DNA from: a virus
Virus record (IMG/VR): IMGVR_UViG_3300025598_000100
Span: 1 to 34,741 of that record
Length of the DNA: 34,741 bases
Strand: one strand, 5' to 3'
The notes beneath the pieces are model-generated. The model was not told where the DNA came from and ran no database searches. It saw nothing but the letters and a program-made list of their open reading frames with translations. Each line of letters begins with the position of its first letter. Within the stretch, counting starts at the first letter, position 1. The translations under genes and the position numbers were made by a program. This document shows positions 1 through 11,959 of the stretch, piece by piece.

Positions 1-120
1 GGTAGCAAATGGTGTAGCTTGTGCTGCATTAACAGCCATAACACCAGAGTAACGAATCACAGCAGGTGTAGCTACAAGTGCAGTTAAGCCAGTAAGGAAC
101 TTACGACGGGATATGGTCAT
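1..120 (-). CDS. Twin-arginine-signal protein, N-terminal part only
   Basis: The gene runs off the left edge, so only about 40 N-terminal residues are visible. The start reads MTISRRKFLTGLTALVATPA. SRRKFL fits the twin-arginine (Tat) consensus S/T-R-R-x-F-L-K, and a short hydrophobic stretch and alanine-rich segment follow. The ATG overlaps the stop of the gene at 117-377 in an ATGA, which implies translational coupling and argues that this start is real. In host proteins such a signal directs export of folded proteins, and here it suggests a product that crosses or sits in the inner membrane. Short phage proteins with similar N-termini are known to me, but I know no function for them. The rest of the protein cannot be seen. 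Confidence 0.6.
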   Translation of the reverse strand, partial: MTISRRKFLTGLTALVATPAVIRYSGVMAVNAAQATPFAT

Positions 121-377
121 GCTTGTGATTCCTTTGGTTTAAGCACGGCTAACGCGGCATGTGCCATTGAAGCTAAGCAATCAAGATACTGCTTATTTTC
201 TTCCCGCAACCGCTCAATCTCATCCATAAAGCTATTGCCAAAGTCTACAGAATGGGCAAGTTGTTTACGCAATAATTCAATTTCATCAGCTGCGGCATGG
301 TAGATGGCGTCTGACTTTACGTCGCCTACTTCCCAATCACCAAGTTCGCGTAATCGTTTTACAATATTTATAGTCAT
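117..377 (-). CDS. Small coiled-coil protein, unknown function
   Basis: This is an 86-residue protein that I do not recognise. It is charged and leucine-patterned: residues about 28-66 carry ADEIELLRKQL and DEIERLREENKQYL heptads, typical of a coiled coil. There is no signal peptide or membrane segment. It lies in a small minus-strand run, 2 bp after the stop of the 380-634 gene, and its stop overlaps the start of the Tat-signal gene by 4 bp, so the three are probably one transcript. An oligomerising accessory or virion-associated protein is possible but is only a guess. Confidence 0.5.
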   Translation of the reverse strand: MTINIVKRLRELGDWEVGDVKSDAIYHAAADEIELLRKQLAHSVDFGNSFMDEIERLREENKQYLDCLASMAHAALAVLKPKESQA

Positions 378-379
378 GT

Positions 380-634
380 TTATGGTTCCTTTTGTTTAGA
401 AGGAAATGATAAAACTTCAGCATTTAAAATGGGCGGCAATTTTATTTTTTCGTTTTCCAAATACTCAATGGTGCTTTTAAGGTTTTGAATAGTAAATGAT
501 TTTGCCCATTCTGATTCAAGCACCAAAGGGTGAAAATCAACTTTAAATTCTTCTTTATTGCTTGCGAAAATAACAATATCCGTCATCTCATGGGGCATGT
601 ATAGTCTAGCGTTTTTAAGTTCCTCTAAATCCAT
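380..634 (-). CDS. Small hypothetical protein
   Basis: This 84-residue protein has no recognisable domain. It looks soluble and mixed alpha/beta, with a segment around residues 18-34 (MTDIVIFASNKEEFKVD) followed by a helical C-terminal half. A GGAG ribosome-binding site lies about 8 nt before the ATG. It is the first gene of the leftmost minus-strand run. Directly upstream is the 1.1 kb gene-free region, which must therefore hold its promoter unless transcription reads through from the terminase gene. Confidence 0.45.
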   Translation of the reverse strand: MDLEELKNARLYMPHEMTDIVIFASNKEEFKVDFHPLVLESEWAKSFTIQNLKSTIEYLENEKIKLPPILNAEVLSFPSKQKEP

Positions 635-1456
635 TTCATTTTCTCCGTTATAGTTAAGGTGACGACTTGTAAGGTTTCATGGCTTAATACGACAAACTCA
701 TAGGAGTAACCAAACTTTACCTTGTAGTGCCTTCAGGGACGTTTTCGTACAAACGCTATCCTTTACACTTGCCCGTTGTTGCTGCGGCTGCAGGAGAGAC
801 CCTCCTATGAGTAACTGATGTAATTTGCATAGCGTGTAAAATATCACAGGTCAAGTACCGGAGTCCCAAGACTGTGTATGAGTTATACGGGGGTAGGGTC
901 TGCTAATGGAACCCCACCCCACCCCGTCTGAACATTAAAATGATGGTGTCCGTTGCCAACACGATTGGCTGGCACCCAACAAAGCCTCACACGGAATCAA
1001 CATGAGGGGGCAACAGGATACGCCGACCGCGACAGACCACAGTCCATTGTCCTGCATTAGCGTAGACTACTCAAGCTACAAGAACACCCAAGCGAGGCAG
1101 CCATGTAGCAAAGATGGCATTGCCCTACAAGGAATATTTTGTTGGGCAATAACTACCACAGGGGTGTCAGTTAGGGGCAATGTATGGCGTTAAGTGATAC
1201 AGTGGTAGGAGTTATACGAAACTGCGTATAAGGGGCGAATATACGGGAGGGCGTATATACCAAAGTACACCGGGGGTGGGGGTGATTATACCAAACAGGG
1301 GGGTAGGTATAGTGAAATGCACTTAACGGGGGTTAGTGTTCAGTTAAATTGGTTTTAGGGAAATTTTGGGGATGTTATGTGGGATGCACGGGACAGCTAC
1401 ACCGCCGCCTCGCCACCCTGCGGGGGGTGCCACCATACCCACCCCACCCCTTAAAA
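635..1456. other. Long gene-free region with many inverted repeats
   Basis: No credible gene occurs here. The one longer open frame (1002-1193, plus) has no ribosome-binding site and no protein-like composition. The stretch is rich in G-runs and C-runs (888-898, 911-925, 1270-1306, 1417-1450). It contains stems at 696-706/802-812, 887-892/922-927, 1119-1130/1139-1150, 1212-1218/1225-1231 and 1239-1245/1252-1258. Short direct repeats also occur: GAGTTATACG at 880 and 1209, and TATACCAAA at about 1256 and 1287. The density of dyads suggests an RNA gene, a packaging or replication region, or regulatory DNA. Confidence 0.6.
690..1265. ncRNA. Candidate structured RNA
   Basis: Several stems point to an RNA that folds. 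An 11-bp perfect inverted repeat (696-706 with 802-812) could close a domain of about 117 nt. The hairpin at 1119-1150 pairs ATTGCCC with GGGCAAT and, after one T-T mismatch, ACAA with TTGT around an 8-nt loop. Two adjacent 7-bp hairpins (1212-1231 and 1239-1258) both use the CGTATA motif with 6-nt loops, and the second loop is GGAGGG. Phages are known to carry large ornate RNAs (for example GOLLD and ROOL), but I cannot match this to any family. Stems are symmetric, so the strand is undetermined. Confidence 0.3.
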
Positions 1457-1610
1457 CTGGCACGAACATTGCATGACCATATTTGGCACGCATCTTGCAT
1501 ATGGTCAAACTTGGCATGAACATTGCTTAAGCATATTTGGCATGACTATTGCTTTGCATAGCTTGACTACAATTTTGCATAGCTTGACCATAGTTGGCAC
1601 AAAGCTTGCT
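1457..1610 (+). repeat. Tandem array of sigma54-like (-24/-12) or iteron elements
   Basis: Five elements fit TGGCAY-N5-TTGC, starting at 1458, 1484, 1512, 1538 and 1595. A degenerate sixth (TGACTA-N5-TTGC) starts at 1564. Start-to-start spacing is 26, 28, 26, 26 and 31 bp. The pattern is that of the sigma54 promoter consensus TGGCACG-N4-TTGCW, and the first two copies match it almost perfectly. All face rightward. Five matches at a regular pitch are hard to ascribe to chance. An alternative is an iteron array bound by a replication or packaging protein. Both readings are inference. Confidence 0.6.
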
Positions 1611-1640
1611 TGACTATAGATATGCTTATGTTCCTATAAT
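1610..1640 (+). promoter_or_regulatory. Possible sigma70-type promoter downstream of the repeat array
   Basis: TTGACT (1610-1615) and a perfect TATAAT (1635-1640) are separated by 19 bp, slightly wider than the optimal 17. The site faces right, towards the 3' end of the oppositely oriented terminase gene, so a transcript would be antisense to that gene unless it ends early. A small dyad (GACAGC at 1701-1706 with GCTGTC at 1715-1720) lies downstream. Confidence 0.3.
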
Positions 1641-1734
1641 GGAAACGGAACAAAACGTGAAAACGTCATAGGCGGCAGAAAGCAAGCTTGACTATACCAA
1701 GACAGCGCAGACCAGCTGTCGGACGCTGGCAACC

Positions 1735-1753
1735 CTTTAAAACGGTTTTAAAG
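1735..1753. other. Perfect 9-bp dyad over the terminase stop codon
   Basis: CTTTAAAAC (1735-1743) and GTTTTAAAG (1745-1753) form a perfect inverted repeat around one central G. The minus-strand TAA stop of the small terminase (1748-1750) lies inside the right arm. One central base is too short for an RNA hairpin loop, so a protein-binding dyad is more likely than a terminator. Confidence 0.35.
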
Positions 1754-2338
1754 CGTGTCCATGTCGCTGGCTGGCGAAATTGCTTTAAGCATGTCCGCAA
1801 GCGTTTCGCGTTCGTCAAAGTCCAGCTTAGCTATATTAACAGTCTGTAAAACAAGCGTATTCGTTGTTTCGTCGCCAGCATGCTTCAACTGGTCGCCGTA
1901 TTTTTTCGGACGCAGCTTTCCGACCAGCCACTTGCGCGTGTCGATTTGCAGCTGCGCCTTTCGTATTTGCTCGTTTGTGCTTTCGTCCGACAGCGCGTCC
2001 GCGATATTAAGCGTTTCGTCGAATAACGTATCGGCTTGCTGGTCGCGCGCGTAAGCGTATTGTTTGGCAAAGTCTGGCACGCGCGCCAACCATTTCCTGA
2101 TCGTGCTTCCGTCTGGCATGTTGTTTTGATTACAAATCCAGCGCAAGCTGCGACCGTCTGCGAGATAATCCAGCACTTTATCGGCTATTGCTTCACTATA
2201 TATGAGCGGACGACCGCGCGGACTTATTCCGTCTGGCTTGGCAATAACAACGGCGTCGCTGGCTGTTATGTCGCGCTTGCGGCTTGGCTTGATTACGCGC
2301 GGCTTGCTGGCTGGCTTTGTTTGGCTGGCGTTTGTCAT
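1748..2338 (-). CDS. Terminase small subunit (Sf6-like)
   Basis: The 196-residue product resembles DNA-packaging small subunits of the Sf6 gp1 type. After a basic, disordered N-terminus (about 1-40) comes a helix-turn-helix-like region (about 45-90). There LADGRSLRWICNQ and DGSTIRKWL recall the known 'sR.ic...gmP...tv..Wl' signature. A helical part follows with QIDTRKWLVGKLRPKKYGD, very typical of the family. It would recognise the phage packaging site and load the large terminase. The start has an AAGGT site about 11 nt upstream. Unusually, no large terminase follows: downstream lies 1.1 kb of gene-free DNA. Codon use (GAC over GAT, many CTGGC and GTCG words) matches the neighbouring cassette at 2587-5283 and not the rest of the window. 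Confidence 0.8.
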   Translation of the reverse strand: MTNASQTKPASKPRVIKPSRKRDITASDAVVIAKPDGISPRGRPLIYSEAIADKVLDYLADGRSLRWICNQNNMPDGSTIRKWLARVPDFAKQYAYARDQQADTLFDETLNIADALSDESTNEQIRKAQLQIDTRKWLVGKLRPKKYGDQLKHAGDETTNTLVLQTVNIAKLDFDERETLADMLKAISPASDMDTL

Positions 2339-2420
2339 TCTGGCTTTACCTTATCAGTCTGGCTTATTCGTCTGGCTTGTTTGTATTACTTTATATGTCT
2401 GGCTTTAAGTCTGTCTGTTT
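2339..2420 (-). repeat. Four AAGCCAGA repeats upstream of terminase small subunit
   Basis: The octamer AAGCCAGA (TCTGGCTT on the plus strand) begins at plus positions 2339, 2358, 2371 and 2398, immediately before the terminase start codon. Spacing is 19, 13 and 27 bp. The nearest copy lies between the ribosome-binding site and the ATG. It may be a binding site (autoregulation or pac), but GTCTGGC words are frequent across this whole block, so part of the signal may be composition. Confidence 0.35.
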
Positions 2421-2496
2421 AGGTCGGCCAGCCAGCGGAATTTCCGAAAAATCAAAACAAAATCAGTAACAATTGCTTAACCATAAGCCAGCGTTC

Positions 2497-2514
2497 GCTT
2501 GACTAAATTGTCAA
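2497..2514 (+). promoter_or_regulatory. TTGAC dyad upstream of the plus-strand cassette
   Basis: TTGAC (2499-2503) and GTCAA (2510-2514) flank a 6-bp spacer, and the left arm is part of a GCTTGACTA motif. The site lies about 75 bp before the gene at 2587, in the divergent region (2339-2586) between it and the terminase gene. It could be an operator or a -35 element, but I see no convincing -10 at the right distance. AAATCAG also occurs three times nearby. No other feature is visible in this spacer. Confidence 0.3.
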
Positions 2515-2586
2515 ATCAGATCAAAAATCAGTCTGGACCCTTGCGTCCAAACGAAACAAACGGCTTAAAACAAAGGAAATGTGAAC

Positions 2587-4026
2587 ATGTTCAATGTCTT
2601 ATGTTTAGAAACAAATCAGCTGGAATTAAATATATCAGGCGACCCGTTAATTTTTGAAAACGGCGTCGCAGCTGCGGACTACGCGCGCGCAATAACGGCG
2701 ACAGCTGGCAAGAAATACCAAGTCAGACGCGCCGAAAATAACGTGGACTGGAAAGCGCGCGAACAAGAACGCTTTAATTCTGGACACTATGAAAGCCCAA
2801 AATGGCTGGCGAAATATTGCGTCAAAATGGTTCGCGCTGGCTTTAATCCAGACCTATTTAGTGAACACGCAATACACGTTTCCAAACGCGACCCGTCAAA
2901 AATTGCATATACTCAAGACGCCATTAAAGGCGCAGCGGACATTCAGACGCCTATTCGTGTCGGGTCGTATTTGACGCAATATTGTCAAGAAATGTCGCCG
3001 GACATGGTTAAGGAAATAGCATTGGAACACGCCAATATTTACGTCGGACAATCGTTTTTAATTGCAACGACAGCGGACGAAATAGAGGAAGTTTATAGAA
3101 ATGGACCGAATAGCTGTATGTCGAAAGGATTGTCCTATTTTTCGTCCAGCCAGCATCCTGTTCGCGTTTACGGCGACAGCGACTTACAGCTGGCTTATTT
3201 AAAAAACGAAAATGACCATTTTTCTGCGCGCGCGCTTATCTGTCGTGAAACAATGACATTTTATCGGATTTACGGCGACGTCGAACGCTTGGAACACGCT
3301 TTAAAGCGCGCTGGATATAGTCGAGGCGACTTTGAAGGTGCGCGTATTCGTCGGCTGGTCTGCGAAAACAACAACCGTCTGATTTTGCCCTATCTCGACG
3401 GAATACAAAGCGTTTCGATTTTAAACGCTGAATTTCTTAAAATTGACAGCGACGGCGAAATTTACGCCGACACTACCGACGGCTTAGAACGTGGTGAAAC
3501 ATGCGAACGCTGCGAACGATCAACAAACGAAACGACAAGCGTTTACACAGACGTCCGATACACGGAACAATGGTGTTCGCGCTGCGTCGAAAACCATTCT
3601 TTTTACTGTGAAGGTATGAACGAAACAGTATCGGACGCCAGCGCCGTGACAGTCGACGGCGAAATGTATGCTGACTGGTACAATCGAGACGAACGCAATT
3701 TTTGCGATTTTTCGCAAGAATTTACTTTCGGCGAAATTGTTGAAATCCATTATATTTACGAACGCGCGTCGGCTTATAATGCGTCGCGTACGCCAACACG
3801 AACGCAGACAATTCAGACAAAATATTGTCGTGCTGATGAAGTCGCGACGTATGCTTTCAAATGTCGCGTGGACGGCGAATACTGGTCGCTGGATTGCAAA
3901 GCCGTCGACACTTGGGCGCAAGAACCACGATCAATTCACAACGAGCCAAACGACATTCCGGCTTGGTATGTCGGCGACGTCGCGCACAACGATACGCGCC
4001 AGCTGCAATTCTATCTGTCGGCTTGA
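2587..4026 (+). CDS. Unknown phage protein with CxxC motifs
   Basis: The 479-residue product has no function I can name. The middle part, around residues 175-275, includes PNSCMSKG, PVRVYG, LQLAYL, RALIC, FYRIYGD, a GAR..R motif and LPYLDG. This looks like a conserved core that I associate with uncharacterised phage proteins. The C-terminal third has two CxxC pairs (about residues 306/309 and 330/333) and another Cys near 341, suggesting a zinc ribbon. I prefer the ATG at 2587 (AGGA 9 nt upstream) over an in-frame GTG at 2581, where the spacing is only 3 nt. It is the first gene of a plus-strand cassette with the metallopeptidase 83 bp downstream. Composition is distinct from most of the window. 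Confidence 0.7.
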   Translation: MFNVLCLETNQLELNISGDPLIFENGVAAADYARAITATAGKKYQVRRAENNVDWKAREQERFNSGHYESPKWLAKYCVKMVRAGFNPDLFSEHAIHVSKRDPSKIAYTQDAIKGAADIQTPIRVGSYLTQYCQEMSPDMVKEIALEHANIYVGQSFLIATTADEIEEVYRNGPNSCMSKGLSYFSSSQHPVRVYGDSDLQLAYLKNENDHFSARALICRETMTFYRIYGDVERLEHALKRAGYSRGDFEGARIRRLVCENNNRLILPYLDGIQSVSILNAEFLKIDSDGEIYADTTDGLERGETCERCERSTNETTSVYTDVRYTEQWCSRCVENHSFYCEGMNETVSDASAVTVDGEMYADWYNRDERNFCDFSQEFTFGEIVEIHYIYERASAYNASRTPTRTQTIQTKYCRADEVATYAFKCRVDGEYWSLDCKAVDTWAQEPRSIHNEPNDIPAWYVGDVAHNDTRQLQFYLSA

Positions 4027-4109
4027 CAATAGTGACGGCGCGTCTGGCTTAGCTGGACGCGCTATCGCGATTGTCAATTCCGATAATCGAAAACAAAGGG
4101 AACAACAAA

Positions 4110-5177
4110 ATGACATTTCTTTCCAAACGAGAACGCAAGCGCGCGCTGCGCGAAACAAAACAAGACAATCCAGTCGCGACGCTGGCGACCATGTTGCAGA
4201 CCATGCGACCAGCGAAAACCGACGCCGTGGACCGTTTCGTCGACCAGTGGCTTGTTCCCTTAGGCGCGCAGCTGGACCATGCCGGAAACGCAATTCTGCG
4301 GGTCGGCGAGGGGTCGCGCGTTTTATGGTCAAGCCACACTGATACGGTCCACCGCGCAGCTGGCCGCCAGCGTATAAGTGTTAATGGCGATTTTTTTAAA
4401 GTCGCATATGGCGACGCAGCGTCTTGCTTAGGCGCAGACTGTACGACTGGCGCGTGGGTTATGCGAGAAATGGCAATGGCTGGCGTGGCTGGTCTGTATG
4501 TCTGGCATGCCGACGAGGAAATAGGCGGCCATGGGTCGGCTTGGCTGGCGAAAAATCATGCTGGCCTGCTGGACGGCGTGGACTATGCAATCGCGTTCGA
4601 CCGTAAAGGGACAGACAGCATTATCACTCACCAATGGGGCGGACGTTGTTGTTCTGATACGTTCGCGCGTTCGCTGGCGTCGCAGCTTCCAAACGCTTAT
4701 CGGACGGACGACACTGGTACGTTTACAGACACGGCGAATTATACAGACGCCATTGCAGAATGTACGAATATCAGTGTCGGATATTACGCGCAGCATACGG
4801 CCAGCGAAACGCAATCGATAAGCCACGCGCTTGCGCTGCGCGACGCCATGCTGCGATTTGATGAAACGAAATTGATACGGTCGCGGAAAGCTGGCGAAAT
4901 CGACAGGGACGATTACGACGGTCTGGCTTGGGGCTGGTCGCGCAATAGCTATAAGAAGACGTCTAAACGCTCTTATAAGGCGACGTCCAGCTGGTACGAC
5001 CGAAACGATTACGGCGCGCGCGATTATTACGACCGCTATGATTTCGACCAGCGCGACCAGCTGGCCGATTACGTTTTCGACAATCCAGACGGCGTAGCAG
5101 ACTTTCTAGAAATGTACGGTTTTTCGTTGGACGAAATACGCCAGCATGTCGACAGCCAAACAAAGGGAAAAGGATAA
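4110..5177 (+). CDS. Zinc metallopeptidase of the M20/M28/M42 type
   Basis: The 355-residue product has a complete set of co-catalytic dizinc residues: SSHTDT (H76, D78), LGADCTTG (D110, bridging), HADEEIGGHG (E136 base, E137), AFDRKG (D164) and a late His in YYAQHT (H229). Such enzymes hydrolyse peptides or amide-linked small molecules in the cytoplasm. There is no signal peptide, and the substrate cannot be inferred. After the catalytic domain, residues about 280-320 form a Tyr/Asp/Arg-rich segment (WYDRNDYGARDYYDRYDFDQ) unlike the core fold, then a short helical tail. ATG 4110 has AGGGA upstream, whereas an upstream TTG (4071) is less likely. The gene sits between an unknown CxxC protein and a tiny membrane peptide, ahead of a terminator. 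Such a peptidase is unusual as phage cargo. Confidence 0.8.
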   Translation: MTFLSKRERKRALRETKQDNPVATLATMLQTMRPAKTDAVDRFVDQWLVPLGAQLDHAGNAILRVGEGSRVLWSSHTDTVHRAAGRQRISVNGDFFKVAYGDAASCLGADCTTGAWVMREMAMAGVAGLYVWHADEEIGGHGSAWLAKNHAGLLDGVDYAIAFDRKGTDSIITHQWGGRCCSDTFARSLASQLPNAYRTDDTGTFTDTANYTDAIAECTNISVGYYAQHTASETQSISHALALRDAMLRFDETKLIRSRKAGEIDRDDYDGLAWGWSRNSYKKTSKRSYKATSSWYDRNDYGARDYYDRYDFDQRDQLADYVFDNPDGVADFLEMYGFSLDEIRQHVDSQTKGKG

Positions 5178-5178
5178 T

Positions 5179-5283
5179 ATGACACTCGCCGACACGCTCG
5201 ACGCGCTTATAGAACCAGCTGGCTGGCTGGTTCTGGTCGCGCTTATTTGGACAGCTGCGGACGTCGTTTTCGGCGGCCTTTAG
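5179..5283 (+). CDS. 34-residue single-span membrane peptide
   Basis: This is a very short gene starting one base after the metallopeptidase stop, with AAGGA about 5 nt before the ATG. The product MTLADTLDALIEPAGWLVLV continues hydrophobically (ALIWTAADVVFGGL), giving one membrane-spanning helix at about residues 12-33. A strong terminator follows 21 bp later, so it is the last gene of the cassette. Its codon use matches the two genes before it. Spacing, ribosome-binding site and composition support it, but no homology can be judged at this size. It could act as a membrane anchor, small toxin or regulatory peptide. Confidence 0.55.
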   Translation: MTLADTLDALIEPAGWLVLVALIWTAADVVFGGL

Positions 5284-5304
5284 TTTCATTCTAAAAATTT
5301 AGAG

Positions 5305-5339
5305 GCTGGCGCGACGTCGTTTCGCGCCAGCTTTTTTTG
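5305..5339 (+). terminator. Rho-independent terminator of the peptidase cassette
   Basis: A perfect 10-bp stem pairs GCTGGCGCGA (5305-5314) with TCGCGCCAGC (5322-5331) across a 7-nt loop. A run of seven T follows directly. The form is textbook for the plus strand and closes the 2587-5283 cassette. Confidence 0.9.
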
Positions 5340-5555
5340 TTCTCAAAATTCGGCGCGCTGGTCGGACTGAAAAATAGGTCTAGACCAAACGACCGACCGC
5401 GACCAAACGTCAAATAGGAATATTTACCCATGCAACGGAATAATTTCTTAAAGAACAAAAAGAGAACATTTTCGCCATCAAAAACCAGTAAAAGTTATAA
5501 CGAGCAAAATTAGGAAAAGTGATTTTTTTGCCAGCAAAATTGGCAAAACAATTTT

Positions 5556-5580
5556 GGTCAATTTTTTTTGACCCTTTTTT
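5556..5580 (+). terminator. Second terminator-like hairpin
   Basis: GGTCAA (5556-5561) pairs with TTGACC (5568-5573) around six T and is followed by C and six T. The stem is short, so this would be a weak backup to the terminator at 5305. Just before it, TTTTGCCA (5526-5533) and TGGCAAAA (5541-5548) form a perfect 8-bp inverted repeat without a T-run. The rest of 5340-5628 is AT-rich with no credible gene. A minus-strand open frame at 5410-5649 is low-complexity and looks fortuitous. Confidence 0.5.
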
Positions 5581-5628
5581 CTCAAGGAAGATTTTTAAAA
5601 AAATCATACTTTTTCCCGCGCATGGTTC

Positions 5629-5657
5629 TTGACTATAAAATTTAGTCATGCTTATTA
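5629..5657 (+). promoter_or_regulatory. Dyad and possible promoter of the early plus operon
   Basis: TGACTA (5630-5635) and TAGTCA (5643-5648) form an inverted repeat with a 7-bp AT spacer. TTGACT (5629-5634) inside it could serve as a -35, with TATTAG or TTATTA about 17-18 bp further as a weak -10. The site lies about 70 bp before the gene at 5700 and shares the CTTGACTA motif with 1561, 1608, 1686 and 2497. An overlapping promoter and operator is the simplest reading. Confidence 0.4.
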
Positions 5658-5699
5658 GGTATCTCCAAACACTGGAAAACGAAAAGAAAGGTTACAAAC

Positions 5700-6029
5700 A
5701 TGACATATATCCCTGCAATGGACTTAGTTGGTTTAACTGATACAGCTTTGGTTGATGAAGCTGCAAAAATTGACATGACTATTAAGGCACTCTCCAAGAA
5801 GCTTGATGAAGCCAAAGCTATCATCCGCTCCCGTGGCGTTAGCGAAGTCATGGGTACGAACTTCAAGGCTACTGTATCATCGCCCGGTCTGCGTTGGTCA
5901 TTGGATACCGACCGCGTTAAGCTTGAGATGGGTGAGGATTGGTATGTTGCTCACTGCAAGGTCAGCCAACCAGCGCCTTCCGTCAGCTTTAAACCTTACC
6001 TGTCACTTGGCGAAATCCAAGTCGCATGA
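5700..6029 (+). CDS. Conserved small early phage protein, unknown function
   Basis: The 109-residue product has an N-terminal helical half (residues about 15-50: VDEAAKIDMTIKALSKKLDEAK, then IIRSRGVSEVMG). A beta-like half follows (FKATVSSPGLRWSLDTDRVKLEMGEDWYVAHCK). This 'short coiled coil, RGV.E..G..F.A.VS, LD...VK.EMG..W' layout recalls small early proteins of alphaproteobacterial phages, and I know no established activity. AAAGG lies about 8 nt before the ATG. It leads a chain of seven overlapping or nearly touching plus-strand genes ending in the GcrA-like gene. Confidence 0.65.
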   Translation: MTYIPAMDLVGLTDTALVDEAAKIDMTIKALSKKLDEAKAIIRSRGVSEVMGTNFKATVSSPGLRWSLDTDRVKLEMGEDWYVAHCKVSQPAPSVSFKPYLSLGEIQVA

Positions 6030-6187
6030 TCTTACCGTGGATCATCAAAAAGAAGACGCGCGACCTGACTGGGCCGCGCGTCAGGACTTGGCTCATTGCC
6101 AAATACAAAATAGTTCAATCCACCCCTGATACGTTAACGTGCGTTAACATCACCGAAGAAAGGCAGAAAAATGGACGACGCAAATGA
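6026..6187 (+). CDS. Short basic protein overlapping its neighbours
   Basis: A 53-codon frame starts in an ATGA overlap with the previous stop and ends 17 nt inside the next gene. The product is basic (MILPWIIKKKTRDL, then GPRVRTWLIAKYKIVQ). The ATGA arrangement, seen at most junctions in this operon, and the otherwise empty 141-bp gap support it. A GC-rich inverted repeat (GACGCGCG at 6055-6062 with CGCGCGTC at 6075-6082) falls inside it. That repeat could instead mean this stretch is a non-coding hairpin in the leader of the next gene. Confidence 0.4.
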   Translation: MILPWIIKKKTRDLTGPRVRTWLIAKYKIVQSTPDTLTCVNITEERQKNGRRK

Positions 6188-6452
6188 AAAGATGGTTACT
6201 GTAACCATTAGAATCCCTGAGCGGGTTGGCAAAGTGCTTTGGGTTTTAGGTGAAGAAAGCTTTGCCGCCATCAATGGGTTTGAGGATATGCAACCAATCA
6301 GGCAATTTGCTTACATTGCGGATGTGGCCGGGTTTATTAATAAACTTAAAGACGGTCTGATGGTTGGTACAATTGCGGCATTGCTGGAAACAGTCTCCGA
6401 CATTGCTGACGATATGTACGAAGATGATGAAGATGAAGGAGCATTACACTAA
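6171..6452 (+). CDS. Small acidic hypothetical protein
   Basis: This 93-residue protein is unrecognised. It begins with a beta-like stretch (MVTVTIRIPERVGKVLWVLG), then helical segments, and ends in a strongly acidic tail (DDMYEDDEDEGALH). The first part is reminiscent of ribbon-helix-helix style starts, but no complete motif is visible. AAAGG precedes the ATG by about 8 nt. Its TAA stop overlaps the next ATG in TAATG, so it is translationally coupled to the KGG-motif gene. Confidence 0.55.
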   Translation: MDDANEKMVTVTIRIPERVGKVLWVLGEESFAAINGFEDMQPIRQFAYIADVAGFINKLKDGLMVGTIAALLETVSDIADDMYEDDEDEGALH

Positions 6453-6724
6453 TGGCTATTCGTATTGCGAAGGTTGAACCAAAACCAGCAAAGACAGTTG
6501 TTAAAGAGGTAACAAAACAGCGCGTAAAAAAGGCTGGAGCAGAGAACGATGGTCGCAAGCGGTCTGGCTTTGCGTCTATGTCACCCGAACGCCGCAAGGA
6601 AGTCGCGGCTAAGGGTGGCAAGGGAAGCAAAGCAGACAAACGGTATTTTGCAATTAACCCCGAAAAGGCTCGTGAAGCTGGGAAGCTTGGCGGTATAGCC
6701 AAAAAAGAAAAGGCAAAACAATGA
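6452..6724 (+). CDS. KGG-repeat (stress-protein-like) small basic protein
   Basis: The 90-residue product has a lysine/alanine-rich N-terminus (residues 1-33). Two KGG-type repeats follow: GFASMSPERRKEVAAKGGKG (about 39-58) and FAINPEKAREAGKLGGIAKK (about 66-85). This is the pattern of the GsiB/YciG-like 'stress-induced repeat' (KGG) family, whose biochemical role is poorly defined. Such short KGG proteins also occur in phages. Very basic and probably unstructured, it might bind nucleic acid, but that is inference. It is coupled to both neighbours (TAATG upstream, ATGA downstream). Confidence 0.65.
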   Translation: MAIRIAKVEPKPAKTVVKEVTKQRVKKAGAENDGRKRSGFASMSPERRKEVAAKGGKGSKADKRYFAINPEKAREAGKLGGIAKKEKAKQ

Positions 6725-6951
6725 CCGGATGGCAAAGTAAAAAGGAAAGCAGCAAAGTACGTTGGCTTGGTCCATATGCACCGACCGACCGTCATGCTGA
6801 TGATGCGACATTGGCTGAGTTAGTTCGTTTGCGGGTTGAAAACGATAACCTGAAAAAAGAATTGGCTGATGTTAAACTATGCTCATGCAAAAAGCGTGAT
6901 GCAGAACTTGAGCAAATGTTTGCTTACTTTGAAACCGAAAAAGGAGAATAA
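6721..6951 (+). CDS. Small coiled-coil protein with a CxC motif
   Basis: The 76-residue product is unrecognised. Residues about 28-52 (TLAELVRLRVENDNLKKELADV) are a clear coiled coil, followed by KLCSCKKRDAELEQMF. It starts in an ATGA overlap with the KGG gene and ends 2 bp before the next start. The size suggests a dimerising accessory protein of the early operon. Confidence 0.5.
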   Translation: MTGWQSKKESSKVRWLGPYAPTDRHADDATLAELVRLRVENDNLKKELADVKLCSCKKRDAELEQMFAYFETEKGE

Positions 6952-6953
6952 AG

Positions 6954-7295
6954 ATGGATAGATTTACTTTAGGCTACAATGGCGACCGTCACAAAGGTAA
7001 GCGGATTGGTACGCTTTGGACAAACCAAGATATTGATGGCGATGTGACATTAACCGATTTTTTTGACGAACAATATGATGTCGCCAAAATTGACATACTT
7101 AATGATTGCATTGCTTTGCTAAACAGGGAATTAGAATTATTGTTAAAAGATTATTCTAACCCAATGCGGCGAATGATGGGTTGGCCTATTGTAAAAACAG
7201 ATAATTGGTCAAATCAAGATGAAGAGCATCTTTTAGAAGAAGTAAAAGAATTGGTGCAGAAAATGGATCATCGGTTAGCGGAGAAGCGGTTATGA
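6954..7295 (+). CDS. Hypothetical early protein
   Basis: The 113-residue product is unrecognised. The first 40 residues look folded and mixed (FTLGYNGDRHKGKRIGTLWT). Residues about 45-70 and 88-110 are amphipathic helices (IDILNDCIALLNRELELLLKD; EEHLLEEVKELVQKMDHRL). GGAGAATAAAG precedes the ATG. Its stop overlaps the GcrA-like start in ATGA. AT content is slightly higher than in neighbouring genes. Confidence 0.5.
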   Translation: MDRFTLGYNGDRHKGKRIGTLWTNQDIDGDVTLTDFFDEQYDVAKIDILNDCIALLNRELELLLKDYSNPMRRMMGWPIVKTDNWSNQDEEHLLEEVKELVQKMDHRLAEKRL

Positions 7296-7831
7296 TTGTA
7301 ACACCTTGGACGCCCCAAGACCGTACGTTGTTAATTAAGATGTGGCAGGACGGTATAAGCGCCCATATCATTGCCGCAACGCTTGGTAATGGCCGTACAC
7401 GCAATGCCGTGTTGGGCTATCTATTTAGATTGAGAAGAAGCCATCCAGAATTGGGTCTACGAGTCGAGAACCCCAAGCCAAGGGAACGGGTTGGCTTGTC
7501 CCCTAAACCAAGAATACCTACCCCACCTAAACCAAAACGCGAACCAGCCGTTCAATTAAACCTGTTCACGCCCATCGAAGAAGTCCCTGCACCGGATGGT
7601 GGCGTTCCATACTTTGAAACGCGGCTATTCCAATGCAAATATATCCTCAACACCAGCAAAGACCCACACAACGTCAAGTGCTGTGGGGGTACGATATATC
7701 GCGGTACATCATGGTGCCGGACGCATTACCACGAGGTATTTACAGTACGTACTTACCCCGGAACACAGGTCGGCCATTTATCATCTGGCAAAACTCAGGC
7801 GGCATCAAAATTCCAGTTTCGTCGAATGTAA
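7292..7831 (+). CDS. GcrA-family cell-cycle regulator
   Basis: Residues 5-47 (PWTPQDRTLLIKMWQDG, SAHIIAATLG, TRNAVLGYLFRL) closely follow the GcrA N-terminal DNA-binding domain (WT.e....L..lW.eGlSa..IA..LG..tRNAViGk..RL). A proline/lysine-rich linker follows (about 60-92). A C-terminal cysteine cluster (CKYI, CCGG, CRTHYHEVF at about 114-150) resembles the GcrA sigma70-contacting region (CrwP...F CG......YC..H). GcrA binds CcrM-methylated GANTC promoters and activates housekeeping RNA polymerase in Alphaproteobacteria, so the phage copy may redirect host transcription. The last 29 residues extend beyond the family core and lie wholly antisense to the phosphoesterase gene. It starts in an ATGA overlap. 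Confidence 0.8.
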   Translation: MIVTPWTPQDRTLLIKMWQDGISAHIIAATLGNGRTRNAVLGYLFRLRRSHPELGLRVENPKPRERVGLSPKPRIPTPPKPKREPAVQLNLFTPIEEVPAPDGGVPYFETRLFQCKYILNTSKDPHNVKCCGGTIYRGTSWCRTHYHEVFTVRTYPGTQVGHLSSGKTQAASKFQFRRM

Positions 7832-8771: not shown

Positions 8772-9038
8772 ATGACCGCAGATGAGTTTACCGCTTTCGT
8801 TCGATACGTTCGTGAAGAGTTTGGCGTGTTTGAAAATTCCCTCGCAAAGTCGATGGGATTTAGCAGACAGGTTCTATCAAAATGGCGTAAGCATGGTTCT
8901 CCCGCTTACGCCGATCTTGTTGCTGCCGCTGTTATCGCTGGCCTTGATCCTTGGCGACCTGAGCCAGAACATCTGCCCAATCCTGCCCTACGACAGGCGG
9001 CACAAGAACCTGAACATTCATCCCATACTGAAGCGTAA
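8772..9038 (+). CDS. Small HTH regulator (Cro/CI-like)
   Basis: The 88-residue product has a helix-turn-helix at residues about 22-45 (SLAKSMGFSRQVLSKWRKHGSP), where SRQVLSKW is the recognition helix. The folded part ends near residue 60 (LDPW). The remaining 28 residues are Pro/Glu/His-rich and lie antisense to the primase gene, and the overlap (8932-9038) begins at about codon 54. AAGG lies about 10 nt before the ATG. It is the only plus-strand gene inside the minus-strand replication module, divergent from the phosphoesterase. A transcriptional switch role is likely but inferred. Confidence 0.65.
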   Translation: MTADEFTAFVRYVREEFGVFENSLAKSMGFSRQVLSKWRKHGSPAYADLVAAAVIAGLDPWRPEPEHLPNPALRQAAQEPEHSSHTEA

Positions 9039-9858
9039 GACGTTTAGCTAAAGTATAAGATGCCGCATGCCCTGTGAAGCTTTCGTCGTTGTCGGCAAAA
9101 ACTGTAACACTGCGTGTTATAGCTGGTGGCTTCCACTTGGCTAAGTTCTGCGCGTTAACTGCTGCCCATACAGGTATTTTAAACATAACAGATGCAGCTA
9201 TGGCTGTCTCAATGCCTTCAGCTATACCCATGTGTTCATCAGCAGGTGCAAGGCGAATCGCTGATCCGTCCGGCAATGGGCCAGACATAATCCTACGGCT
9301 AGGCAGTACATCTGCTTTATGCCCATCGTCGGTTAAATAGGTCAGGTGAACATTCTGAGCAGTATCATCCGACCCACAGATTTTGCTTACCATAGCCCAA
9401 TGGTGCTTTCCCTGTACTTCACGGATTGCATTAGAGGACCATACAAGGCCGAGACGGTTTTTTAGGTAACGATGCACCACCCCGCCAACCTTCGGCTTCT
9501 CAGCGGCTTCCCAAATATTTTTAATCGCGGCCCTTTGGCAATTTTCTTCCGTATAATCTTTCTGAACCAGAACAGGTTTTTCGCCCAAAAGATCAGAAAT
9601 AGCTTTGGCAATTTGCGTGAACGATTTGCCTGTCACACCCTGCACAAGTTGAAAGCCGTCTCCGGCCCCGCAAGAGTTACAAATATATCGGCCTCTGCCA
9701 TCCTTATCATCAAATCGGAATCGATCCTTGCCGCCGCATATTGGGCAAGGACCATGCCTATTTACGAGATACTTGGCATCTACGCCAAGCTGTGGGAGCA
9801 GATTACGCCACTTGCCCTGTGCTATATCTGCTGTACGGCGTTCTTGGTTGTTTGTCAC
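8932..9858 (-). CDS. DNA primase, zinc-finger plus Toprim type
   Basis: The 308-residue product has a primase zinc ribbon at the N-terminus (CPICGGKDRFRFDDKDG...YICNSCG; C38, C41, C60, C63), as in P4 alpha and T7-type primases. A Toprim catalytic domain follows, with IAEGIETA (E214) and VFADND (D256, D258) holding the metal ions. It would make RNA primers for phage replication. No helicase domain is fused, and the SF2 helicase directly upstream may partner it. The start lies inside the helicase gene (56-bp same-strand overlap), and the C-terminus overlaps the plus-strand HTH gene. Confidence 0.85.
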   Translation of the reverse strand: MTNNQERRTADIAQGKWRNLLPQLGVDAKYLVNRHGPCPICGGKDRFRFDDKDGRGRYICNSCGAGDGFQLVQGVTGKSFTQIAKAISDLLGEKPVLVQKDYTEENCQRAAIKNIWEAAEKPKVGGVVHRYLKNRLGLVWSSNAIREVQGKHHWAMVSKICGSDDTAQNVHLTYLTDDGHKADVLPSRRIMSGPLPDGSAIRLAPADEHMGIAEGIETAIAASVMFKIPVWAAVNAQNLAKWKPPAITRSVTVFADNDESFTGHAASYTLAKRLTLQYGMNVQVLVPPVVGQDWADVLAQVAKDQGQR

Positions 9859-11320
9859 GTTGTTTTGCCTTAACTATGTTTCTATGTTTGATCCAGCTTA
9901 GCGTAGCCGCTGATGGGGAGAGGGCGATGCCTTTGAACGAATTGGCCGGGCCAACCCCAAATTTATCCTTGTATGCCCAATATGCCCAACCGTCTTTGTA
10001 TCCGTGAGTAATCGCGTAGCCACGCAGTTCTGAATAGAATGTTTCCTTTTCCTTCGTGGTGTAAGCGCTGACTTGCTTTTTTCCATCACGAGAAAGTTCG
10101 TTGAGTGTTCCTGTAGTATGTTCAACCTTATCAACAGCCTCAGCCTTGAAACCACATGCAGGGCATTGAGGTGTGCGAGGCGGTTTAAGGAAGGTGCATT
10201 TAACGCATGCTTTGGGGAGTGGAATCTTCTTCTCACGTTCTGCTGTTCCTCTGCCTTGTCCATCATCCAATTTGTCGTAAATGATATCTGTTACAAATCC
10301 CAAGCGAAGAGTTGTATCGCTATGGTCAAGTATCAAACAATGATCTTTGCCTTCAGCCGTTCTCAACCCCCGGCCAATCATTTGCGTGTATAGAATTTCA
10401 GATTTAGTGGGCCGAGCCAAAATGATGCAGTGAACATTCCAATCCACGCCCGTAGTTAAAACGCCAACATTGCAAACAACTTTTAAATCGCCGTCCGCGA
10501 ATTGTTTGGCGATTTCTGCACGTTCTTCCATGCTGGTGTAAGCATCCATGTAACCCGCTGGGATACCCGCATCCAAAAATAACTTTTGAATGTGCTTGGC
10601 ATGCGTACGATTAACCGCAAAGCAGATCGTCGGGCGGTATTGGCCCTTCTCCATCCACGTTGAAACAATATCGGCAACCAATGGTTTCTTGTCCATTGCT
10701 GTACCAAGTTGCTTCTTGTTGTAATCACCTGCGACAATAGCCACGCCAGTAAGATCGGGATGGCTTGGTGCAAAGACCTTGAAGTCAGACAAATGCTTAA
10801 GGTCAATCAATTCTTGAGTCGTGGTGCCGATGATCAGGTCATCGTAAATGCGACCCATGCCTTTTGCCCAAGGCGTAGCAGTTAAGCCAACAACGGGGAT
10901 ATCTTTCCATTGTGGGCTATCAAACCACGTTTCGTAAAACTTGAACATGACATGGCACTCGTCCACGATGACCAAATCAGCTTCAGGCAAAGACTTGCGC
11001 CTTGCCAAGGTTTGGACGGAACAGACCTGAACTGGTTGGGTCGGGTCGGTGCGTTCATGCAGCGCTTGAATGACGCCAATTTCCCAAATGTCGTGCTTCT
11101 CAAACTTCTCAACGGTCTGGTCAATCAGGCTAAGCGCGGGTACGCAAAACAAAACCCGCTTGCCCTTTTCCCTCGCCATGCGGACAATTTCTGCCGCCGC
11201 AATTGTCTTGCCAGCACCCGTTGGCATCTGCACGACTGGACGTTTACTGCCGCTGCTAAGCGACTTGCGTAGCTTAACAATAGCGTCAGTTTGGTAGTCA
11301 CGTAGTATAGCTTTAGACAT
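9803..11320 (-). CDS. SF2 DEAD/DEAH-type helicase with zinc motif
   Basis: The 505-residue product carries the superfamily-2 signature: Q-like LRDYQ (residues 6-10), Walker A MPTGAGKT (32-39), DECH box (120-123), motif III GLTATP (145-150) and motif VI QMIGRGLR (313-320). After the second RecA domain comes a CxxC...CxxC zinc ribbon (372-375 and 386-389), as in RadD-like and phage replication helicases. It should unwind DNA or branched intermediates using ATP, together with the primase, DnaA-like protein and RusA of this module. AGGT precedes the ATG, and upstream is an AT-rich palindromic region. Confidence 0.88.
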   Translation of the reverse strand: MSKAILRDYQTDAIVKLRKSLSSGSKRPVVQMPTGAGKTIAAAEIVRMAREKGKRVLFCVPALSLIDQTVEKFEKHDIWEIGVIQALHERTDPTQPVQVCSVQTLARRKSLPEADLVIVDECHVMFKFYETWFDSPQWKDIPVVGLTATPWAKGMGRIYDDLIIGTTTQELIDLKHLSDFKVFAPSHPDLTGVAIVAGDYNKKQLGTAMDKKPLVADIVSTWMEKGQYRPTICFAVNRTHAKHIQKLFLDAGIPAGYMDAYTSMEERAEIAKQFADGDLKVVCNVGVLTTGVDWNVHCIILARPTKSEILYTQMIGRGLRTAEGKDHCLILDHSDTTLRLGFVTDIIYDKLDDGQGRGTAEREKKIPLPKACVKCTFLKPPRTPQCPACGFKAEAVDKVEHTTGTLNELSRDGKKQVSAYTTKEKETFYSELRGYAITHGYKDGWAYWAYKDKFGVGPANSFKGIALSPSAATLSWIKHRNIVKAKQRDKQPRTPYSRYSTGQVA

Positions 11321-11539: not shown

Positions 11540-11959
11540 CTAACAAAGATTTGCACCAGAGGCAATATCGTCTTCGTATTTTTTTATTCCGTAAATTACG
11601 GTCGAGTGCCGGACATCCATGAGTCGGCCAATTTCAGCATAAGGCAAGTTAAGTTCGTTCTTGGCTCGGTAAAATACTTCACGTCGAACCTTAACCACAT
11701 CTGACTTAATAGCTGGGCTTCTTACGATATTTGGATCGATGCCATGTATGGCGGCAACTTCCCGAAGCATAGCAGCAAACTTACGGTTATGCAGTCTAAC
11801 TTGGAGAACGGGCTGATCAGCTAATATCTTAGGTTCCTGCGGCAAAGTGACGCGTTCGATCGGAACGATACCAGTGGGGCCACTGACACCGCCTAACCGT
11901 TTCTTGACGGCCAAATATTTAGCCCTCAATTCATCATAAGTCTGCGGTTCTCTGTCCAT
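11540..11959 (-). CDS. DnaA domain-IV-like DNA-binding protein
   Basis: In the 139-residue product, residues about 62-128 resemble the C-terminal DNA-binding domain of DnaA. A helix (KSDVVKVRREVFYRAKNEL) is followed by LPYAEIGRLM and then VRHSTVIYGIKKYE. That last segment corresponds to the DnaA signature '..RDHTTVlha..kIe' that contacts the DnaA box. No ATPase domain is present, so it cannot replace DnaA, but it may mark the phage origin or compete for host DnaA boxes. The N-terminal 55 residues are unlike DnaA. The start overlaps the RusA gene by 34 bp. Confidence 0.75.
   Translation of the reverse strand: MDREPQTYDELRAKYLAVKKRLGGVSGPTGIVPIERVTLPQEPKILADQPVLQVRLHNRKFAAMLREVAAIHGIDPNIVRSPAIKSDVVKVRREVFYRAKNELNLPYAEIGRLMDVRHSTVIYGIKKYEDDIASGANLC

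Follow-up and report, generated by a model that had tools for sequence, protein, structure and literature searches.

Close-packed arrays of sigma54-type elements near phage packaging genes, candidate docking sites for host RpoN

The array and its surroundings

The window, by which we mean the whole stretch of DNA analysed, is a linear IMG/VR virus record of 34,741 bp with a phage gene set. About 1.1 kb of it, without convincing genes, lies between small minus-strand genes on one side (from 634 leftward) and, on the other, the gene for a small terminase subunit of the Sf6 type (terS; 1748-2338, minus strand; PF20901, E=4.9e-37; phrog_1482, E=1.4e-41), whose 3' end points toward the array. In this region, five exact matches to TGGCAYNNNNNTTGC follow each other on the plus strand: TGGCACGAACATTGC (1458-1472), TGGCACGCATCTTGC (1484-1498), TGGCATGAACATTGC (1512-1526), TGGCATGACTATTGC (1538-1552) and TGGCACAAAGCTTGC (1595-1609). 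They span 1458-1609, with starts 26, 28, 26 and 57 bp apart, and are the only matches on either strand of the 34.7 kb. Scored with a weight matrix (PWM) built from the arrays of other phages, the five reach 23.3 to 27.0 out of 33.2 (23.3 for the first, 27.0 for the second, 23.9 for the fourth); the next best site of the window reaches 11.7, and the fifth-best site in each of 60 Markov shuffles 10.2 or less. Dinucleotide shuffles of the window contain 0.24 motif matches on average, two at most and never five, and the same letters at spacer lengths of 1-9 other than 5 occur at most once each in the window; shuffles and spacer controls together rule out a chance origin. The five elements listed in a preliminary description of this DNA are thereby confirmed, and the scoring against shuffled sequence that it proposed comes out in their favor. 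A degenerate sixth element that it placed at 1564 (TGACTACAATTTTGC) is not a site: its GG is missing and its score is -6.6. Its proposed repeat pitch of 26-31 bp is therefore too simple: it holds for the spacings of 26, 28 and 26 bp and fails for the 57-bp gap left once the sixth element falls away. Other phages, too, favor a spacing of 57 bp, among several others.

Immediately 5' of the array, the sequence reads as a C-rich tract (1438-1450, plus strand); immediately 3' of it follows a block (1610-1672, plus strand) that aligns with a relative, described below as L241. The block contains TTGACT (1610-1615) and TATAAT (1635-1640), which abut the array and, at 19 bp apart, make a poor sigma70-like promoter; a promoter scan allowing 16-18 bp spacing did not call the pair. 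Searches with Rfam and for tRNAs gave no match in the array region. Direct repeats with a role as replication iterons are expected beside a replication initiator; direct repeats are present here, and the primase and helicase genes of the window (8932-11320) lie 7-10 kb off.

Further genes of the window deserve mention in their own right. Adjoining terS, 2581-4026 encodes a protein of 481 residues without a Pfam or PHROG match, and on the minus strand 1-119 holds the start of a gene whose product begins with a twin-arginine-like signal (MTISRRKFLTGL), unusual for a phage; both are conserved in the relative (there as L122, the same contig as L241). Also encoded, at 7292-7831 and 11540-11959, are a GcrA-like protein and one that has the C-terminal DNA-binding domain of DnaA. 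We take the GcrA-like family to be associated with alphaproteobacteria, which suggests a host of the window phage and does not establish it.

Motif, packing and recurrence

The sigma54 consensus has been published as TGGCACN5-7TTGCT (PMC12316311), the GG and TGC of such sites lying at -24 and -12 (PMC3844500). The elements of the phage arrays, TGGCAY-N5-TTGCW and intergenic, resemble these promoters in carrying GG at -24 and GC at -12 at a fixed distance of 10 bp, and in their flanking positions: among 443 elements, the positions outside the search pattern follow the extended consensus, with Y before TGG at 0.89, G at position 7 at 0.75 and W after TTGC at 0.93, next to weak purine preferences upstream. 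The spacer is rigid. In and near the arrays of 214 array-bearing loci, 899 sites have N5, against 0-2 at every other spacer of 2-8; outside the arrays of the same loci the counts are 110 against 1-7, and in loci picked by terS homology alone 78 against 0-5. In an unbiased subset of 13 pairs of elements from relatives, mismatches amount to 5% in the core and 40% in the spacer; the extreme core conservation seen in the full comparison is inflated by ascertainment and was set aside.

The arrays differ from sigma54 promoters in being tandem and close-packed at preferred spacings, sometimes with convergent pairs. Neighbors on the same strand peak at 26-28, 35-37, 46-47 and 57 bp, the peaks following each other at about 10 bp, roughly one helical turn; they almost never lie less than 24 bp apart, and the minimum distance between starts is 19-22 bp for convergent and 21-25 bp for divergent pairs. 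Read as exclusion, these limits imply a bound protein that covers about 24-25 bp and so extends beyond the 15-bp element by about 5 bp upstream and 3-4 bp downstream, which is close to the region that sigma54 protects. Most array sites lie on one strand (706 versus 116); sigma54-type sites outside arrays show no preference of orientation (33 versus 28).

A search for the array in related phage genomes, also proposed in the preliminary description, succeeded, and the arrays recur far more widely. Two elements 23-39 bp apart with an N5 spacer occur in at least 119 viral contigs; the same search over the whole viral collection with N4 and N6 spacers returns 12 and 50 stretches, respectively. For the stringent three-copy form, the viral collection gives at least 119 contigs and 257 Gb of bacterial genomes just 6 matches; two of these six are repeats that lie within long open frames or overlap them. 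These prevalences are lower bounds, taken from a sample of arrays that is not random and represents lineages unequally; most loci were found via the motif itself, the loci chosen by terS and the Vibrio phages described below serving as checks that depend less on it, and gene calls in the loci are simple open reading frames. Four contigs (L059, L086, L019, L087) have, instead of a single array, several separate clusters of TTTGGCAYRAYATTTGC type distributed over the genome.

The array contigs listed all bear metagenome identifiers, none of isolate form; BLAST found no cultured phage with a tandem array, and no cultured-phage match to the small terminase of the main array-bearing family. A counterpart is seen in isolated Vibrio T5-like phages (Demerecviridae; L286, L287, L368-L374), where conserved sigma54-type elements with the same core and spacer adjoin DnaA boxes in the non-coding terminal-repeat region; unlike those of the arrays, they are one or two, separated and oppositely oriented, not tandem. 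VPT02 and VPG01 have three strict matches each in 120 kb, every one of them in the first 3.4 kb, against none for the reversed control; in VF16, the element region lies inside the annotated left terminal repeat (1-7427). Across nine such isolates, the element next to the DnaA boxes varies in its spacer and retains its core.

Genomic position and the small terminase

Arrays keep to one genomic position, mostly the point from which the terminase operon and another operon diverge. In 124 of the 214 loci, a gene for the large terminase (TerL) lies within six genes of the array, and in 122 of these 124 it is transcribed away from it. The TerL genes of the array loci fall into 25 subclusters at 45% identity, and one podovirus-like family contributes 84 of the genes. 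When loci of this main family are chosen by terS-like homology only, the 900 bp upstream contain one or more elements in 26 of 63 and two or more in 19, and the 900 bp downstream contain none in any locus; 63 of the 76 elements are directed away from terS and 13 toward it.

Several features accompany the arrays in this position. A C-rich tract (e.g. CCCCTCCCCCGCCCC), similar to the one at 1438-1450 of the window, adjoins the array, or the place where it would be, in almost every main-family member (L288-L366, upstream of terS). Relatives that are poor in elements or lack the array have other short repeats at the same position (CACCATTGGG, CCTGAGA, CTTGAGAA and GAACAAACCG, in L292, L294, L318, L332 and L241). 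A close pair, the array-bearing L325 and the array-less L332, have both flanks in common, including the C-rich tract and an intact sigma70-like promoter, which in L325 lies downstream of the array. An exchange of promoters, in which the array takes the place of a sigma70 early promoter, was considered and dropped: a strong sigma70-like promoter is found in 13 of 35 array-less loci versus 2 of the 21 that have two or more elements, but these loci are related rather than independent, and in some of them both occur. So was a genome end at the array; contig ends fall within 100 bp of arrays 28 times versus 3.8 expected, but not at a single base, and repeats also break assemblies.

Arrays of terminase-binding sites are known, for example, from phages lambda and P1, and the phage arrays resemble lambda cosB and P1 pac in being short repeated sites, in many loci beside terminase genes. 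They differ in that their motif is independent of the small terminase family and equals the consensus of a host factor. The contig L241 encodes a terS 96% identical to that of the window and has three elements, one every 26 bp. The flanking sequences of the two align closely, with repeats of GAACAAACCG type replacing part of the array in L241, the third element of the window recurring unchanged and the fifth with the same core and a different spacer. Among 80 loci with a window-like small terminase, this contig is the only one with an array; of the other 79, two have one stray element each and the remainder lack any. Conversely, the terS of the window and that of the main family are unrelated (hhalign probability 0.2%), and their arrays have the identical motif. 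In these comparisons, the array site thus does not co-vary with the small terminase, an argument against recognition as pac or cosB and in favor of a host factor that is conserved; a motif common to 25 TerL subclusters likewise needs such a factor. The small terminase was therefore rejected as the reader of the elements, and a site specific to one terminase appears unlikely from the sequences compared.

A candidate reader and its possible roles

The best candidate for the reader is host RpoN (sigma54), the only bacterial protein known to us with a site of the TGGCAY-N5-TTGC type; its binding here is inferred from the sequence of the elements. The sigma54 reading of the preliminary description is thus borne out in part, by the motif, the rigid spacer, the independent consensus positions and the recurrence in unrelated phages; as that description also said, the window encodes no enhancer-binding protein. 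Likewise, 30 array-bearing records, of which many are fragments, yielded neither an RpoN DNA-binding domain nor an enhancer-binding protein, and on these records a phage-encoded RpoN or activator was set aside as unlikely; activation would accordingly rest entirely on the host. In bacterial bins with an intergenic array, RpoN is encoded in four of four, the assignment of viral contigs to bins being unreliable.

We give about even chances to a reading in which the array is a set of close-packed sites for RpoN, forming a control region by the packaging genes with a directional role. Host RpoN, free or, probably, as RNA polymerase holoenzyme, would dock on the array; the holoenzyme would form stable closed complexes on the elements, which an active enhancer-binding protein of the host would cause to fire, so driving or gating rightward transcription. 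In the window, a transcript would start antisense to terS and then run toward the plus-strand genes from 2581; as rightward here means antisense into terS, a role as promoter is less straightforward than in the main family. The bias to one strand and the direction away from terS favor a directional role, as promoter or gate, which we hold to be the most likely role of the array, with less confidence than that its elements are RpoN sites. Pairs that converge at 19-22 bp cannot all function as promoters, and the indifferent orientation of the sites outside arrays and the sigma70-like promoter downstream of the array in some phages also count against promoter use; the arrays come, moreover, unlike sigma54 promoters, without an activator gene in the records searched and without a known target gene.

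The convergent pairs, the tight packing and the missing activator favor instead one of two serious rivals of the directional reading, each of which we think improbable. In one, sigma54 complexes that do not transcribe would act as a roadblock or operator where the early and terminase operons diverge, by occluding, bending or insulating that junction, or would act on the genome end as it enters. Arrays do lie at divergent junctions, L325 keeps the sigma70-like promoter that the array-less L332 also has, and the isolated Vibrio phages retain their elements by DnaA boxes in the terminal-repeat region; sigma54 sites that adjoin other promoters may repress or activate these (PMC3844500). The non-promoter sigma54 sites of Salmonella, for which repression or interference has been proposed, are similar in having no evident promoter role, but are many single sites within genes, whereas the phage arrays are intergenic (PMC3844500). 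The sequence data analysed here appear to fit a roadblock and promoter use alike. In the other rival, the array would be a decoy, its sites multiplied by replication and drawing RpoN or its holoenzyme off host genes such as those for motility, nitrogen or phage shock. Such titration would account for packing near the apparent footprint limit, for the use of both strands in some phages, where convergent pairs could not serve as promoters, and for extra sites of indifferent orientation outside arrays, and it would suit the lack of a phage activator in the records searched; a decoy does not, however, call for a preferred strand or a direction away from terS, and three to eight copies kept at a single genomic position make a small sponge.

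Two readings without sigma54 are less probable still. That the small terminase binds the elements as a packaging site of cosB or pac type would suit the 124 loci with nearby terminase genes and the neighboring C-rich tract, which is conserved; we consider it quite doubtful in view of the unrelated terS proteins with the same motif, the 79 array-less relatives of the window terS and the presence of elements in just 26 of 63 loci of the main terS family, and the preliminary description's alternative of an iteron set for packaging is disfavored on the same grounds. It is equally hard to credit that the array serves another phage or host protein, such as a replication or early-gene regulator, whose site happens to coincide with the sigma54 consensus: the other short repeats of array-less relatives do look as though this were the place of fast-changing operators, but a 9-base core and a spacer that are unchanged over 25 terminase subclusters require a reader that is itself conserved widely.

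Phages are known mainly for exploiting or inhibiting sigma70-type transcription, and a literature search found no paper describing such arrays. Their recurrence in many unrelated uncultured phages suggests an undescribed way to engage host sigma54. We put at roughly one half the probability that they form a widespread, undescribed class of phage element: closely packed arrays that bind RpoN and that unrelated phages of uncultured bacteria have gained time and again. On this view, the phages would use them, as infection or packaging begins, to dock the sigma54 machinery of the host, to gate it or to titrate it. If so, sigma54 and the host signals that activate it would be a general point of contact between phage and host, and the array would mark phages whose hosts have RpoN. 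With their conserved single elements, the Vibrio T5-like isolates offer a system for testing the sigma54 idea.
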